Virus record (IMG/VR): IMGVR_UViG_3300009684_000046
Coordinates: 1-49,859 of that record
Length of the DNA: 49,859 nucleotides
Reading direction: 5' to 3' (one strand)
From: a virus
Below are positions 27,385 through 45,137 of the stretch, piece by piece. A program made the position numbers and the translations under genes. The first letter of the stretch is position 1. Each line of letters starts with the position of its first letter. A model generated the notes under the pieces. The model searched no databases. It had not been told where the DNA came from and saw only the letters and a program-made list of their open reading frames with translations.

Positions 27385-29238
27385 ATGGCATGTAATCCGA
27401 TACAATTATATTATTTTGGAATAAGTAGCGCTAATATTTGTACTCAGGCTTTTGTTCCAAATACTGTGTATTATATTGATGGTGACCCAATGACATTGGG
27501 TAGTTATTTACATACATCAAGTCCATGTACGGGTGCGAATTTGGCGACAAGTGGTTATTATGCTTACATTAATAACGGAATTATTTATTATTTTAGTATA
27601 GATAGAAATGGTGCATTAAATAAAATGGACCAGTGTAATAATTGTGCGGTCGGAAGTGTTAAAAATTTAACACTAGTAACTTATACCGACTGTTGTGGAA
27701 ACTATGTAGAATTAATACCCACGGTTATTGACCAAACATTTATTTATGACCCCAATTATCCGGTAACAGGTGTGTATGTGTTTATTTCAACAACACCAAG
27801 AGTACCATGTCCTTCAAATTCTCCTACACCAACACATACGCCAACACCAACTGTAACACCAACACCAACAAAAACACCGGTATCTATATATGTTTCAGGA
27901 TGTTGTGATGGTAAAATATATAAATTATTATCAGGGGTAGGACAATCTATTGGGGCAGTAATAAGAGTTGCACCATTAAATTTTTGTTATACGGTTATTT
28001 CTGAACCTAAATTACCACCGACAAATACTTTAAAGGATAATTTGGGTATTACAATAGTTGACGGAGATTGTTATGATTTAAGTTGTCAACCATGTCCAAG
28101 TTCTACCCCAACACCAACACCAACACAAACTCCTGGTAATACCCCAACACCAACACCGGCACCAAATCCACCACCAATACCTGCTGCGGGTTCAGTAGGT
28201 GGAGAATGTAAGATTATTACAATAGAGAACTTTGAAATAAGTTGTAGTGGTACTAATCCAACAACATATGCTTCTTTAGATGGTAGTTTAACTGCAATTG
28301 TATCAGGAGGAACTGCGCCTTATTATTATATTTGGAGTGGGCCAAATGGAAGTTATTATACCAGTAAAACAATAACGAATATACCTTCAGGTGATTATAC
28401 TTTAACGGTTTATGATTATTTTAGGGATTTTACAGGAACAACTATTTGTACAATTACAGGACCTAAAGATTGTGAATTTGGCGCATCGTATTTTGAGTTT
28501 TTACCTCCAGAACCTTCACAAACATTAACAATGACAGTAACACCGACATTAACTCCTACTCGTACACCAACACCTACGCCTACTAAAACAACTGGATATA
28601 TACCGCCAACACCAACAGTAACTAAAACGTCAACACCAACAAGAACAATTACACCAAGTAATACCGCAACACCTACAGTTACACCAACAATAACTGCAAC
28701 ACCTACAGTTACACCAACAATAACTAGAAGTGGTGTACCAGCACCTGTATATAGTCAATCATATGAGGCGAATGTATATCGTTGTGTTCCTACCATACAA
28801 TGTGGAAGTGGATATACGATAACAACAATCACAGTTCAAAATCCGTTTACATTAACTTTGGCTAAATTCTATAGAAGTACTGACCCATATGATACTAATG
28901 TTTATGAGCCTTATACTACAGTATCAACACCGGCATCAGTAATTGTTAATTTTGGTTCTGAAACAACTACATGTACTTTGGCGTGTAATGCGTTACCAAC
29001 ATATAGATATTATTTGGCAGATAAGTATGATTGTGGTACTTGTACATTACAAGATAGCGGAGTTCAAGTTGCTGTGGCAAATTCAACATTGACGGTTGGT
29101 AAATGGTATGGTAATACTGATGGTACTTTCTCTTATTATATTACTTCAGGTCCAATAACGTCATCACCATCAGGACAACCAATATTGTTATCGTATACAA
29201 TGTCAACAAATTGTGCTAATGCTTGTATTATAAATTAA
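27385..29238 (+). CDS. Thr-Pro-rich fibre-like protein with SprB-like domain
   Basis: This 617-residue protein starts [12 protein letters not shown], a paralog of the N-terminus at 25810. It alternates small Cys-containing beta domains with three Thr-Pro stalks (near residues 145-165, 238-265 and 380-450). Between stalks two and three lies a SprB-like repeat ([20 protein letters not shown]...GDYTLTVYD). The last 160 residues have repeated Cys and Tyr-rich units ([28 protein letters not shown]). No signal peptide. It most likely forms a stalked virion fibre; the repeated modules suggest exchange with neighbouring genes. Confidence 0.65.
28531..28730 (+). repeat. Thr-Pro codon repeat tract
   Basis: This is the third stalk of the gene at 27385. 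It includes a direct duplication encoding [10 protein letters not shown] twice, with nearly identical DNA in both copies. Confidence 0.65.
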
Positions 29239-39862: not shown

Positions 39863-40816
39863 ATGATTTTTTTATTAACATTTATTTTAGCGATGCTTAT
39901 TCTAGGAACAAGCTTCGGAGTATTTAACTTCAAAAACTACACCTCAAAGGTGGAAACAAAGTATGGTTCGGAAACCAAAACCAACACAGGATTAATTATT
40001 AAGGCAGTTGTTGTTGTATTGGCATCAATCATTTTAGGAACGGTAAATCCAATTACAGTAGAACGTATTGACGTTGGTAATGTCGGACTTAAGGTAAACA
40101 ACACTGGTGATGAACGAGGAGTCAGCAAAACTGCTTACGTTACGGGTTGGGTGTTCTACAACAATTGGTTGTCTCGTATTAAGGAGTTCCCTGTGACACA
40201 GCAACACATTGATTATGAGGAGACATCAATTATCACAAGAGGTGGATTCCAAGCCATCATCAAACCAAGTTTTAACTGGTCTGTTAATCCGGGAAACGCC
40301 GCTGATATGTACCAGAACTTAAAACAGGACGTAGACCAAATCAAGGACACTTGGCTTAAAAACGCAATCATCGGGGCAGTTAATGATATTGCCAACTTAT
40401 ATACCGTAGATAGTATTTTTAACCACAGGGCTGAGTTTGAAGCGGACATTGTTAGAGAGTGTAACAAACGTGTAAGTAAGTGGTTTAATGTCTCTCAATT
40501 GAGAACAAACATCGTTCCACCGAAGGAGATTACACAAGCGATTAACGCCAAGACAGCGGCAGTTCAGGAGGCACAAGCGGCAATACAACAAAAGATAGTT
40601 GCTGAAGCACAGGCACAAACACAGATTGCAAAGGCAAAAGGTGATTCCGCACAGGCAGTTATATCCGCATCAGGTAGAGCTGAAGCCGTTAAGAAAGAAC
40701 AACAATACTTAACACCTATGTATATTGAATATATCCGAGCTCAAAGATGGGATGGTAAATATCCTACAACAATGTTAGGTGGTAATACATCTACTTTATT
40801 GAACCTCAACAAGTAA
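39863..40816 (+). CDS. SPFH/prohibitin-like membrane protein
   Basis: This 317-residue protein has two N-terminal hydrophobic segments (residues about 1-20 and 45-62), an SPFH/Band-7 domain (VGLKVNNTG, TAYVTGWVFYNN, FPVTQQHIDYEETSIITRGG), and a long Ala/Gln-rich coiled coil (INAKTAAVQEAQAAIQQKIV and onward to residue 285). This is the build of prohibitins, stomatins and HflC/K, which form ring or cage oligomers on membranes and control proteases. It follows a small membrane gene in a host-promoter unit, so it may remodel or protect the host membrane early. A defensive or lysis-timing role is speculative. Confidence 0.85.
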   Translation: MIFLLTFILAMLILGTSFGVFNFKNYTSKVETKYGSETKTNTGLIIKAVVVVLASIILGTVNPITVERIDVGNVGLKVNNTGDERGVSKTAYVTGWVFYNNWLSRIKEFPVTQQHIDYEETSIITRGGFQAIIKPSFNWSVNPGNAADMYQNLKQDVDQIKDTWLKNAIIGAVNDIANLYTVDSIFNHRAEFEADIVRECNKRVSKWFNVSQLRTNIVPPKEITQAINAKTAAVQEAQAAIQQKIVAEAQAQTQIAKAKGDSAQAVISASGRAEAVKKEQQYLTPMYIEYIRAQRWDGKYPTTMLGGNTSTLLNLNK

Positions 40817-41326: not shown

Positions 41327-41485
41327 ATGAAAATATATCACCAAATAGATTATGAAAAAGTAAAAACCATTGAGGATATTATCTTAATATTAAAAGCAAT
41401 GGACTTAAAAATAGTTGTTGATTCTGATTATGAAATACCGGAAGAAATATTAGAGATTACAAAATTTTTAAAAGAAGTGGAATGA
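41327..41485 (+). CDS. Small helical protein
   Basis: This 52-residue protein (MKIYHQIDYEKVKTIEDIIL...) has two predicted helices separated by a short loop (DLKIVVDSDYEIPEE). It overlaps the SET-domain gene by 4 nt (ATGA), so the two are likely translationally coupled. No known motif. Confidence 0.6.
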   Translation: MKIYHQIDYEKVKTIEDIILILKAMDLKIVVDSDYEIPEEILEITKFLKEVE

Positions 41486-41799
41486 TTAAAGTTGATTTTT
41501 CTAAAATAGATGGAAGAGGTGTTTTTGCAACGCAGAAAGTTGATGTGGGAACTGAACTGGTGTGTGATGTGATGCTTTTTGAGAATGATAATAAACATTT
41601 AATTAAATGGTCTTATCCGTGGAGTAAAACACATTTCTCTTTTTGTGTGGGTTTTGGTTCTTTTTTTAACCATAATGACACCCCAAATGTTAAGATTAAA
41701 AGTATTGATAAAGAAAAATTAACTAAAACATTTGTTGTGATAAAAGAGGTTAATAAGGGTGATGAACTTTTTTTAAATTACGGAAGAAATAAATTTTAG
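41482..41799 (+). CDS. SET-domain protein, putative lysine methyltransferase
   Basis: This 105-residue protein is a minimal SET domain: DGRGVFATQKVDVGTEL (residues 10-26, the GRG strand), GFGSFFNHNDTPNV (57-70, with N63-H64 of the NH motif that binds S-adenosylmethionine) and VNKGDELFLNYG (90-101, with catalytic Tyr100). The pre- and post-SET zinc regions are missing, as in bacterial and viral SET proteins. It would methylate lysines on a host or phage protein early in infection. The target cannot be read from the sequence. It overlaps the gene before it and precedes a host-type promoter. Confidence 0.8.
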   Translation: MIKVDFSKIDGRGVFATQKVDVGTELVCDVMLFENDNKHLIKWSYPWSKTHFSFCVGFGSFFNHNDTPNVKIKSIDKEKLTKTFVVIKEVNKGDELFLNYGRNKF

Positions 41800-42266: not shown

Positions 42267-42285
42267 TAACATATCCACGGCAAGA

Positions 42286-42310
42286 ACCTCATCTTAGGAT
42301 GGGGTTTTTT
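42286..42310 (+). terminator. Rho-independent terminator (repeat copy 2)
   Basis: ACCTCATC/GATGGGGT with a TTAG loop and a T-run. It is nearly identical to the terminator at 40847-40871, including about 10 nt upstream and 10 nt downstream of the stem. Confidence 0.88.
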
Positions 42311-42334: not shown

Positions 42335-42649
42335 ATGAAGATTTTAATAACAGAGAATCAAATGAGGAAAGTTCAGTTTAAGTATTTGGATTACTTATTT
42401 GAGGGTATGTATGAGGTGGAATCAAAAAAATTTCGGGGTTCAAGATTTTGGAAGAAAGGAGATAAGGTAATATTAGAATTGGGAAAATCAGGTAGATTAT
42501 GGGTTTTACATTCAATTTGGAGAAATATTTCCAATATGTTTTCATTAGATTATAATGAAACTAAACAACTCATAAAAGATTGGGTGGAACAACATTTAGA
42601 ATTGGAGGGGGTAATACCACACGAACACGGAAAGGATATTGATTTCTAA
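42335..42649 (+). CDS. ITE-leader family protein, copy 1
   Basis: This 104-residue protein starts MKILITENQMRKVQ and continues with the family core QFKYLDYLFEGMYEVES, a W..ISNMFSLDYNETKQL segment and a C-terminal helix (IKDWVEQHLELEG). It is the first of four tandem paralogs, and a fifth, lacking the leader, lies at 354. The leader ends in ITE, an (I/L)xE sequence like the sites cut by the T4 prohead protease. The core has no motif I recognise. If the leader is a capsid-targeting tag, the product would be packaged in the head; this is inference. Confidence 0.75.
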   Translation: MKILITENQMRKVQFKYLDYLFEGMYEVESKKFRGSRFWKKGDKVILELGKSGRLWVLHSIWRNISNMFSLDYNETKQLIKDWVEQHLELEGVIPHEHGKDIDF

Positions 42650-42675
42650 ATGGGACAACATTTAAAATAAAAATT

Positions 42676-43005
42676 ATGAGGATTTTAATAACGGAGAATC
42701 AAATGAGGAAAGTTCAGTTTAAGTATTTGGATTACTTATTTGAGGATATGTATGAAGTTGAATCGGCAAAATATAAGCACTCTAAATTTTGGAAAAAAAA
42801 TAATGAGGTGATGTTAGAATTGGAAAAATCAGGTCGGATGAGAGTTTCATCCTCAATTTGGCGTAATATATCAAATATGTTTTCGTTAAATTATGATGAA
42901 ACTAAACAACTTATAAAAGACTGGGTGGAACAACGTTTAAAATTGGAGGTATTTACACCTTTTATTTACAACAACATCGTAAATCCAAGGTGGGACAACA
43001 TTTAA
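42676..43005 (+). CDS. ITE-leader family protein, copy 2
   Basis: This 109-residue paralog starts MRILITENQMRKVQ. The core is closest to copy 1 (YEVES, SIWRNISNMFSLNYDETKQL). The last 20 residues (FTPFIYNNIVNPRWDNI) match those of copy 3 in pattern, ending in RW(D/N)NI. Between residues 60 and 66 it differs by substitution of hydrophobic residues (MRVSSS for LWVLHS). Spacer to the next copy is 11 nt. Confidence 0.75.
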   Translation: MRILITENQMRKVQFKYLDYLFEDMYEVESAKYKHSKFWKKNNEVMLELEKSGRMRVSSSIWRNISNMFSLNYDETKQLIKDWVEQRLKLEVFTPFIYNNIVNPRWDNI

Positions 43006-43016
43006 TATAAAAAATT

Positions 43017-43346
43017 ATGAAGATTTTAATAACGGAGAATCAGTTAAGGAAAGTTCAGTTTAAGTATTTGGATTACTTATTTGATGGGATGTATGAGATT
43101 AAATCCGCAAAATATCCTGATTCCAAAATTTGGAAAAAAGATGATGAAGTGGTGTTAGAATGGTCAACAACAGGTCAGTTGAGAGTTTTACATTCAATTT
43201 GGAGTAATATTTCCAATATGTTTTCTTTGGAATATGATGAAACTGAACAACTTATAAAAGATTGGGTGGAACAACATTTAGAAGTAGAAAGAATTACTTC
43301 TTTGTATAGAACACAATTTTATCATTCCAGGTGGAACAACATTTAA
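43017..43346 (+). CDS. ITE-leader family protein, copy 3
   Basis: This 109-residue paralog starts MKILITENQLRKVQ with core FDGMYEIKSAKYPDSKIWKK and a C-terminus ending YHSRWNNI. It keeps the conserved W and helix (LIKDWVEQHLEVE). It shares the C-terminal end type with copy 2 and the EIKS variant with copy 4. Confidence 0.75.
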   Translation: MKILITENQLRKVQFKYLDYLFDGMYEIKSAKYPDSKIWKKDDEVVLEWSTTGQLRVLHSIWSNISNMFSLEYDETEQLIKDWVEQHLEVERITSLYRTQFYHSRWNNI

Positions 43347-43356
43347 TATAAAAATT

Positions 43357-43683
43357 ATGAGAATTATAATAACGGAGAATCAAATGATGAGGGCTCAGTT
43401 TAAGTATTTGGATTACTTATTTGATGGGATGTATGAGATTAAATCAAATGATTATCCGAATTCCAAAGTTTGGGGAAAAGATGGTGAGATAATTTTAGAA
43501 TTAGATGACTATAATGGATTTTGGGTTTTACGTGAAATTTGGGATAATATTTGCGATATGTTTTCAATTGAATATCCTGAAATTAACGAACTTATAAAAG
43601 AATGGGCTGAAGAAAATTTAGATTTGGAGGGAACTACACTGAATCCAAATGCCATCAATCCAGTAAGATTTTACACCGATTAA
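43357..43683 (+). CDS. ITE-leader family protein, copy 4
   Basis: This 108-residue paralog starts MRIIITENQMMRAQ. It is the most diverged tandem copy (YEIKSNDYPNSKVWGKDGEI, WDNICDMFSIEYPEINELIKE) and its central and C-terminal parts are closer in type to the gene at 354 (W.DNI/W.DDI; EWAE). The leader retains ITE. The gap to the metallopeptidase gene is 10 nt. Confidence 0.75.
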   Translation: MRIIITENQMMRAQFKYLDYLFDGMYEIKSNDYPNSKVWGKDGEIILELDDYNGFWVLREIWDNICDMFSIEYPEINELIKEWAEENLDLEGTTLNPNAINPVRFYTD

Positions 43684-43693
43684 TATAAAAATT

Positions 43694-44812
43694 ATGAAGA
43701 TTTTAATAACAGAAGAGCAATACGAAAGATTATCAGGTGAGATGGAAGAGGCACTTGGAGTTCCCGAAGGAATACTTGAAGCCGGTGAAGAGATATATGA
43801 TTTAATAGTCCAAGAGTTGGATGATTTTAATGGTGATATTGAGGACTTAAATAAAGATGGGTTTGAGATAGATAAAGAATTTACAGTTGGGGGACACAAC
43901 TTTAATAAGATAACCGTTAAGTTTGATGTTGAAGAACACCCGATGGCAAAAAATGCTGATATGGTTGGGATGAGTTCGGAGAATGATTCAGAACTTGACG
44001 ATAGATTGGTGTTCAGGAGTGTCAGAGACCCACAAGAAATTGTTATAGGGTTCAAGTTCTTTATTGGTTCAGGAAAGGGAATTGAGGTTATTAAAAACTA
44101 TCTTAAAAGACATAGAAACGAAGACATACCATCACTATCTCACGAAATAAAACATGCGTTTAGAGATGTTAAACAAAAGACGGAACCGATGCACCAAAGG
44201 GTTGGGTATGGTGCAATACAACAACAAAAAGAGTTTTTTGGTTTTATTCCTGAACTTAATGAATTTTTATTTAACTCATATTATATCCATGCACTTGAGA
44301 ATGTTGTAAGACCAACAGAACTTGCCGCAGAAATGAGAATTAATAATGTGTCAAGAAAAGAGTTCTTAAAGTTTTTCTTAAACTCCGAAATGATTAAAAG
44401 ATTAAAAGAAATACAAAATTTTAGTTATGAGGACTTTATAGAAAAAATGCATTCAACTGAAAACGTCAGTAAGATAAAAAAAATGTTGGATGCTGTTGGA
44501 GTTGATTATGAAGGTGAAGATGATTATGAGGTTGTTGATAAATTTTTGAAGATGTTTATTGTTAGTTTAACAAATAAAAAAAATGAGTTAATGAATAGGT
44601 TTTTAACATCTAACGCAATGGAAGCTATATTAGGGTTAAGAGGTGTTAAAGATAAATTTTTCAAGAAGTATGTTGCTCAAACAACAAAATATGGTTATGA
44701 CTACGATGCCTTCTTTGAGAATGAAGAGAACAATTTCCACCGAGTCGCCACGATGATGTTTAAGAAACTCGCAAAACTATACGCAATGGCTAAAAACAAC
44801 CCCCCTTCTTAA
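43694..44812 (+). CDS. Putative zinc metallopeptidase with ITE leader
   Basis: This 372-residue protein begins MKILITEEQYERL, sharing the leader of the four upstream paralogs but not their core. At residues 150-154 it has HEIKH, an HExxH zinc-binding motif, in IPSLSHEIKHAFRDV; a third ligand could be E209 or E213 in NVVRPTELAAEMR. The region from 60-130 is a beta-rich domain before the active site, and residues 220-372 are helical. The family is not identified. With its leader it could be a packaged, ejected protease acting on host proteins, or a protease acting within the head. The stop codon lies inside the terminator hairpin loop. Confidence 0.65.
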   Translation: MKILITEEQYERLSGEMEEALGVPEGILEAGEEIYDLIVQELDDFNGDIEDLNKDGFEIDKEFTVGGHNFNKITVKFDVEEHPMAKNADMVGMSSENDSELDDRLVFRSVRDPQEIVIGFKFFIGSGKGIEVIKNYLKRHRNEDIPSLSHEIKHAFRDVKQKTEPMHQRVGYGAIQQQKEFFGFIPELNEFLFNSYYIHALENVVRPTELAAEMRINNVSRKEFLKFFLNSEMIKRLKEIQNFSYEDFIEKMHSTENVSKIKKMLDAVGVDYEGEDDYEVVDKFLKMFIVSLTNKKNELMNRFLTSNAMEAILGLRGVKDKFFKKYVAQTTKYGYDYDAFFENEENNFHRVATMMFKKLAKLYAMAKNNPPS

Positions 44813-44826
44813 TAGAGGGGTTTTTT
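44802..44826 (+). terminator. Rho-independent terminator overlapping a stop codon
   Basis: CCCCTT/GAGGGG (with T-A and T.G pairs) has a loop that contains the TAA of the metallopeptidase gene, followed by a T-run (44821 onwards). The downstream TTTTTTATTTTATAA is shared with the two terminators at 40847 and 42286. Confidence 0.8.
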
Positions 44827-44891: not shown

Positions 44892-45137
44892 ATGACACCA
44901 AAAGAAAAAGCGAGAGAATTAGTACATATATTTTACATTTCCTTACCAAACAATGGTGGATTTACAGGGTTAAATAACGTTAATAGTAGATGGAATGAGG
45001 GAAAAAATTGTGCGTTGATTGCGGTAAATGTCATGTTAAAAAACATGATGTTCTATGAGGAACAATTTGATACGGGAAAACCTGAACATCATAGAACATA
45101 TTGGGAAGAAGTTAAAACAGAAATTGAAAAAATATGA
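44892..45137 (+). CDS. Hypothetical protein leading the recombination operon
   Basis: This 81-residue protein starts MTPKEKARELVHIFYISLPN. The ATG at 44892 lies 20 nt after the -7 box; a TTG start within the -33 box would read through the promoter and is rejected. The N-terminal helix is followed by NNGGFTGLNNVNSRWNEGKN and NVMLKNMMFYEEQ. It resembles short Bacteroidota phage proteins with KARELV... starts, but I know no function. It overlaps the nuclease gene by 4 nt. Confidence 0.65.
   Translation: MTPKEKARELVHIFYISLPNNGGFTGLNNVNSRWNEGKNCALIAVNVMLKNMMFYEEQFDTGKPEHHRTYWEEVKTEIEKI

Follow-up and report, generated by a model that had tools for sequence, protein, structure and literature searches.

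What is the function, if any, of a short peptide with which five adjacent viral genes begin? The window (the whole stretch of DNA that was analysed, a virus record of 49.9 kb) contains five consecutive open reading frames on the plus strand whose products start with M(K/R)I(L/I)ITE(N/E)Q: four tandem paralogs of about 108 residues, followed by a protein that has an HExxH motif. The first paralog (42335–42649, 104 aa) starts with MKILITENQ (42335–42361), the second (42676–43005, 109 aa) with MRILITENQ (42676–42702), the third (43017–43346, 109 aa) with MKILITENQ (43017–43043), the fourth (43357–43683, 108 aa) with MRIIITENQ (43357–43383), and the HExxH protein (43694–44812) with MKILITEEQ. These starts and coordinates confirm the common MK-ILITE start reported in an initial annotation of this DNA. 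Two terminator-like sites on the plus strand, a hairpin upstream of the cluster (42282–42309, a 12-pair stem and then a run of T) and a hairpin directly 3' of the HExxH gene (44803–44820), bracket exactly the five genes and no others; five such sites were found in the region, where 1.0 is expected.

Paralogs 2 to 4 are 50–69% identical to paralog 1, and both the upstream DNA and the leader codons are nearly identical between the copies of the array, so that the common start of the paralogs is partly due to tandem duplication. The same cannot fully explain the leader of the HExxH protein. Past the leader, family searches detected no similarity between this protein and the paralogs, in agreement with the initial annotation, which had described a conserved leader on unrelated bodies. 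A near relative of the virus (G001, 192 kb) has one paralog and an HExxH gene whose product is 96% identical to that of the window over the best segment. In a second relative (G002, 102 kb), the HExxH protein is 72% identical and its gene lies about 33 kb away from three paralogs; it still starts with MKIIITEEQ, which local gene conversion or duplication does not account for.

The comparison of six homologs of the HExxH protein shows where its leader ends. H150, E151, H154 and E202 are invariant, and E202 would be the third metal ligand. The six leaders, 11–23 residues long, are mutually unrelated (MKILITEEQYERLSGEMEE, MKIIITEEQLKRIKGEMEE, MRELIRQVLRE, MKKNLIITENQLEIIVNNLLLNE, MIDQRIQVLLNE and MSVSNKLKIRNLIRE), A(L/V)GVP follows directly in six out of six, and at the junction only E19, A20, G22, V23 and P24 are invariant (E↓A-GVP, the arrow marking here and below the predicted cut). 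In the AlphaFold model, residues 1–19 have low confidence and form a separate helix. The homolog junctions and the low model confidence point to a 19-residue propeptide, MKILITEEQYERLSGEMEE (43694–43750, plus strand), which would be cut off before ALGVPEG to leave a mature metalloprotease-like protein (43751–44812, plus strand; H150-E151-x-x-H154). The initial annotation had placed the cut after ITE, at E7; the homologs place it between E19 and A20. The P3 residue of the site in the window is M rather than I or L, which counts against a propeptide. The HExxH protein has no Pfam match, a PDB fold search with its model, which is of moderate confidence, returned nothing at E < 0.001, and tblastn gave no match among isolate phages.

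Leaders of this kind are widespread. The two relatives encode further proteins starting with MKIVKLTESDIQKLIKKVLSE, MAKKIIRLTESDLTKLIKRVILE, MKKIIRLTENDLTRLVRRVINE and similar peptides. Scans of IMG/VR with the leader family matched at least 600 and at least 120 stretches, and 160 loci among the matches listed contain 357 proteins whose start is of the LTE or ITE type. In GTDB, on the contrary, bacterial and archaeal genomes totalling 257 billion bases yielded two leader loci, both in one MAG. A tblastn search of isolate phages with a 26-aa leader found no match, and a literature search for LTESDL or ITESQL found no relevant published mention. By a simple word-sharing measure, 95 proteins of the ITE type fall into 76 body clusters. 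In 28 leader-bearing records the leader-coding pattern has 253 matches, against 2 for a reversed control pattern, a count that is not a prevalence since the records were selected by their leaders and include near-duplicates; up to 21 matches of the LTE/ITE type occur in a single record. The leader codons vary synonymously, hence it is the peptide, and not the DNA, that is conserved. As had been proposed, the N-terminal peptide thus appears to be an independent module: dozens of unrelated bodies carry it, and it is swappable and optional.

In the LTE class, conservation runs up to an (I/L)xE motif whose Glu lies 13 positions after the Glu of LTE, around residue 22: E occupies position +13 in 91% of the sequences, I, L or V position +11 in 95%, and beyond this the information falls below 1 bit. 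The conserved unit of the widespread form therefore ends about 13 residues past ITE or LTE, not at ITE as first proposed. The same sharp end recurs in leaders fetched with a pattern that stops at +3 and puts no constraint downstream, and (I/L/M/V)xE is present at +13 in 239 of 262 leaders, nearly all of which are 22 residues long. The enrichment is modest in the ITE class, where (I/L)xE occurs between +6 and +16 in 35 of 94 proteins (shuffled mean 20.6), or in 33 of 68 (shuffled mean 19.1) when the members resembling the small paralogs (the KYLD family) are left out. A profile of the leader helix starts within residues 1–20 in 376 of 4885 proteins and matches internal windows in only 7 of 3399, 4 of 2745 and 0 of 2300, which shows that the tag is N-terminal. 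The residue after the predicted cut is mostly Q, N, S, E or D in the LTE class and rarely A, unlike in gp23 and at the T4 sites; this difference is the main weakness of the propeptide reading, although A does occupy this position in the HExxH and head-cluster families.

More leader classes, M(K/R)(D/E)LIR(K/R)(V/I)L(K/R)E↓ and MNLQENIRRILRE↓, are common in these phages (for example L059, L099, L071 and L182). The idea that the leader helix mimics a scaffold protein (gp22-like, KELVKESLKE↓Q) is unsupported: profile scores are only moderate and do not rank at the top.

Leaders are also exchanged between homologous proteins. Two loci (L065 and L212) encode bodies that are 98% identical behind different leaders, joined at VIKE↓Q (VIKE↓QGVRTLVP), and in 16 orthologs of the G001 gene at 27688–28152, the segment KIxRLTESD is optional while the helix and (L/I/V)xE are constant. 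The unrelated leaders that homologous bodies carry end in (I/L/M)xE. About 15 of the 25 blastp families listed, judged by eye, show an (I/L/M/V)xE junction in both members; a general statistical test of junction co-location on blastp pairs is confounded, as the alignments often begin inside the leader helix. As read from these alignments, the swapping is what one would expect of propeptides that are detachable and have their processing site in common.

A protease suited to this site is present in the same phages. A gp21-like prohead protease of family S77 was found in 22 of 28 large leader-bearing records, those without it being possibly fragments. The 192-kb relative is among the 22, and it also encodes a gp23-like capsid protein with FLINE↓ASATD. 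The motif (I/L)xE↓(A/S), as LINE↓A, LINE↓S, LLNE↓S or LIYE↓A, is present in all 20 gp23 proteins that were checked, in addition to that of G001. Further leaders and a gp21-like protease, both of which the initial annotation had suggested looking for in the complete genome, were found in relatives; the window itself yielded no protease gene, and neither did G002, probably because both are fragments. The gene that follows gp23 carries a leader of the same kind (MDRLNKIIKRVIKE↓ATSD, MNIRNIVKKILRE↓ATSD or MNIQDIVNKIILE↓ATTE), as does a gene preceding the terminase (MGHKELEKLIRRIVKE↓APVDYGDYPERMDP). No leader matches were obtained in four Bacteroidota phages that lack S77 (crAss001, Cellulophaga phi14:2, phi38:1 and phiST), although these controls are few. 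Judged from these genes, the leader-bearing phages are T4-like, and the nearest isolate terminases indicate that their hosts are probably Bacteroidota. In three loci (L265 4270, L266 3209 and L276 13829), the protein after gp23 has a helix resembling a leader (e.g. LRDLVKKVLRES) at the C-terminal end too.

We argue that the common start belongs to a family of interchangeable N-terminal propeptides, of about 11–25 residues, that would target proteins to the capsid in T4-like phages. A removable propeptide is indicated by the end of conservation just after (I/L)xE, by the (I/L/M)xE with which unrelated leaders end, and by the invariant E↓A-GVP of the HExxH proteins; as far as sequences tell, the tag is modular, confined to phages, N-terminal, conserved in its (I/L)xE end and present in phages that also encode the matching protease. 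At its core would be an amphipathic helix ending in (I/L)xE; in many cases a strand-like extension lies ahead of this helix, with the pattern K-(I/V)-(I/V)-x-(L/I)-T-E-(S/N)-(D/Q)-L, and MKILITE in the window would be the short form of this extension. The tag would bind the prohead core during head assembly, the gp21-like S77 protease would then cut after (I/L)xE during maturation (after E19 in the HExxH protein), and the freed body, by analogy with T4, would stay with the DNA in the head and enter the next host at infection. The cargo of the window would then consist of the metalloprotease-like protein and the four small folded proteins encoded in tandem. Of the readings considered, a removable propeptide for capsid targeting has the best support, and we consider it probable. 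The proposal of the initial annotation is supported in outline, by the confinement to phages, the co-occurrence with S77 and the (I/L)xE end, but not in the form in which it was stated, with a cut at ITE.

Two other explanations concern the leader as a whole. It may be that the leader is an uncut tag that docks proteins to another phage structure or complex, such as a membrane, the replication compartment or the transcription machinery, in which case the terminal Glu would merely be the end of an amphipathic helix. The helix is indeed rich in Lys and Arg, the residue past the Glu is seldom A as in gp23, and a sigma factor and endolysins are among the cargo; yet it would be surprising for a docking tag that unrelated leaders, across many bodies, have nothing but the (I/L/M)xE end in common, and that the same leader type occurs next to gp23, before the terminase and together with S77. 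We consider an uncut tag unlikely. Far less probable still is that the common start reflects shared ancestry without any function, the array having arisen by tandem duplication and the HExxH gene having gained its first codons by recombination with its neighbours: the near identity of upstream DNA and leader codons in the array agrees with this view, but neither the retention of the leader by the distant HExxH gene of G002 nor its wide distribution, on dozens of unrelated bodies and with synonymous codon changes, does.

A more serious doubt, which we would nevertheless not favor, applies to the four paralogs alone: MKILITE could be no more than the strand and helix cap with which their fold begins, the leader of the HExxH protein being a true propeptide. 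The paralog family has no (I/L)xE junction, and in the AlphaFold model of paralog 1 (pLDDT 90.8) the helix after ITE, residues 7–21, is an integral part of the domain, which counts against a propeptide. The only candidate junctions are ITE7↓N8 and, inside the domain, LFE in paralogs 1 and 2, where paralogs 3 and 4 have LFD; the four proteins might be cut at E7 or uncut. Some homologs start with MVITD, MISD or MEISN in place of the arm. On the other hand, residues 1–6 are modelled as coil outside the fold, other homologs lack the arm altogether (L226_11113 and a fifth paralog of the window, at 321–680 on the plus strand, which by sequence comparison has the same body without the MK-ILITE start), and one homolog (L226_7964) has a full LTE leader ahead of the domain. 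A PDB fold search with the paralog gave no confident match, and structural matches of its model were to uncultured phage proteins only. The upstream start of the fifth paralog, MGMEKKNNLNKMGN, is unlike that of the other paralogs. Minus-strand tandem arrays of several MKYLITES paralogs of this small-protein family occur in L060, L078, L135, L154 and L226.

Short propeptides of this sort are known from other phages. The propeptides of the T4 internal proteins (IP), named capsid-targeting sequence, have 10–19 residues and are cut after (L/I)xE; an aspartate instead of the Glu prevented the processing of IPIII (PMC9026906). Following this motif, gp23 of T4 would be cut at FLTE↓A, IPII and IPIII at MKTYQEFIAE↓A, and IPI at TITE↓A. 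As in T4, the leaders described here are short N-terminal peptides with an (I/L)xE end, carried by unrelated, exchangeable small proteins in phages that have a gp21-like protease and a gp23 capsid. They differ from the T4 sequence by their length (about 22 residues), their LTE-helix structure, the existence of several classes and a residue after the predicted cut that is often Q, N or S; MKTYQEFIAE has no evident similarity to them beyond MK and the xxE end. In the giant phage SPN3US, the prohead protease gp245 removes N-terminal propeptides of 20–24 residues from gp45 and gp225 (PMC10052503). These head proteins are alike in having short propeptides cut by a prohead protease, but the motif is AxE, only nine substrates are known, and we found no leader family shared by unrelated cargo described in the same paper. 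An isolate for comparison is Flavobacterium phage immuto (MW353175; host Flavobacterium sp. LMO8), which has S77 and gp23 and two genes starting with MKKQILSEQF(K/R)RMQxLAGIITE↓S: the length class, the (I/L)(S/T)E near the start and the (I/L)xE at the end are the same, but no detailed alignment of these leaders to the LTE and ITE classes is possible. A literature search found no virion proteomics of this phage.

In the textbook example of proteins injected together with phage DNA, the T4 internal proteins disarm host defences, and the cargo of the leaders could likewise be injected effectors. Most leader-bearing proteins have no family match. Those that do include endolysins (with LysM or peptidoglycan-binding domains), an L,D-transpeptidase-like protein, an acetyltransferase, an endonuclease VII-like protein and a UPF0227 hydrolase; in the last, the match to the family profile does not begin until residue 27, directly past a leader of 21 residues. 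Part of the cargo has the look of proteins for lysis or transcription, whose packaging cannot be taken for granted, and this counts against capsid targeting. An ECF-like sigma factor with an ITES leader (L221, 2357–2932) would, if packaged, arrive with the DNA.

Beyond the window, a large group of uncultured T4-like phages may use several interchangeable, protease-removed N-terminal tags as a general loading code. Each virion would then take up dozens of mutually unrelated proteins (metalloprotease-like ones, enzymes acting on peptidoglycan, hydrolases, a sigma factor and members of very many unknown families), and the injected proteome could be predicted from the tag alone; we see this extension as evenly poised between true and false. 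A sequence handle for injected cargo in uncultured phages has been lacking so far. Should the proposed function hold, inspecting the first 25 residues would serve to single out candidates for injection in an abundant group of aquatic phages, and these would span very many families whose function is unknown; the direct prediction is that mature N-termini lie right after a defined Glu.

Last, we note a few neighbouring genes. A small SET-domain protein, unusual for a phage, is encoded at 41482–41799 of the window (Pfam, E 3.5e-10). A membrane protein of the SPFH/Band 7 (stomatin-like) type is encoded at 39863–40816, and it adjoins leader genes in G001 and G002 too. In another locus (L005, 13296–14298), three paralogs in tandem, with many short repeats (MTIAQQLKVTKFPF...), lie between the counterparts of the window genes at 45134 and 46216.
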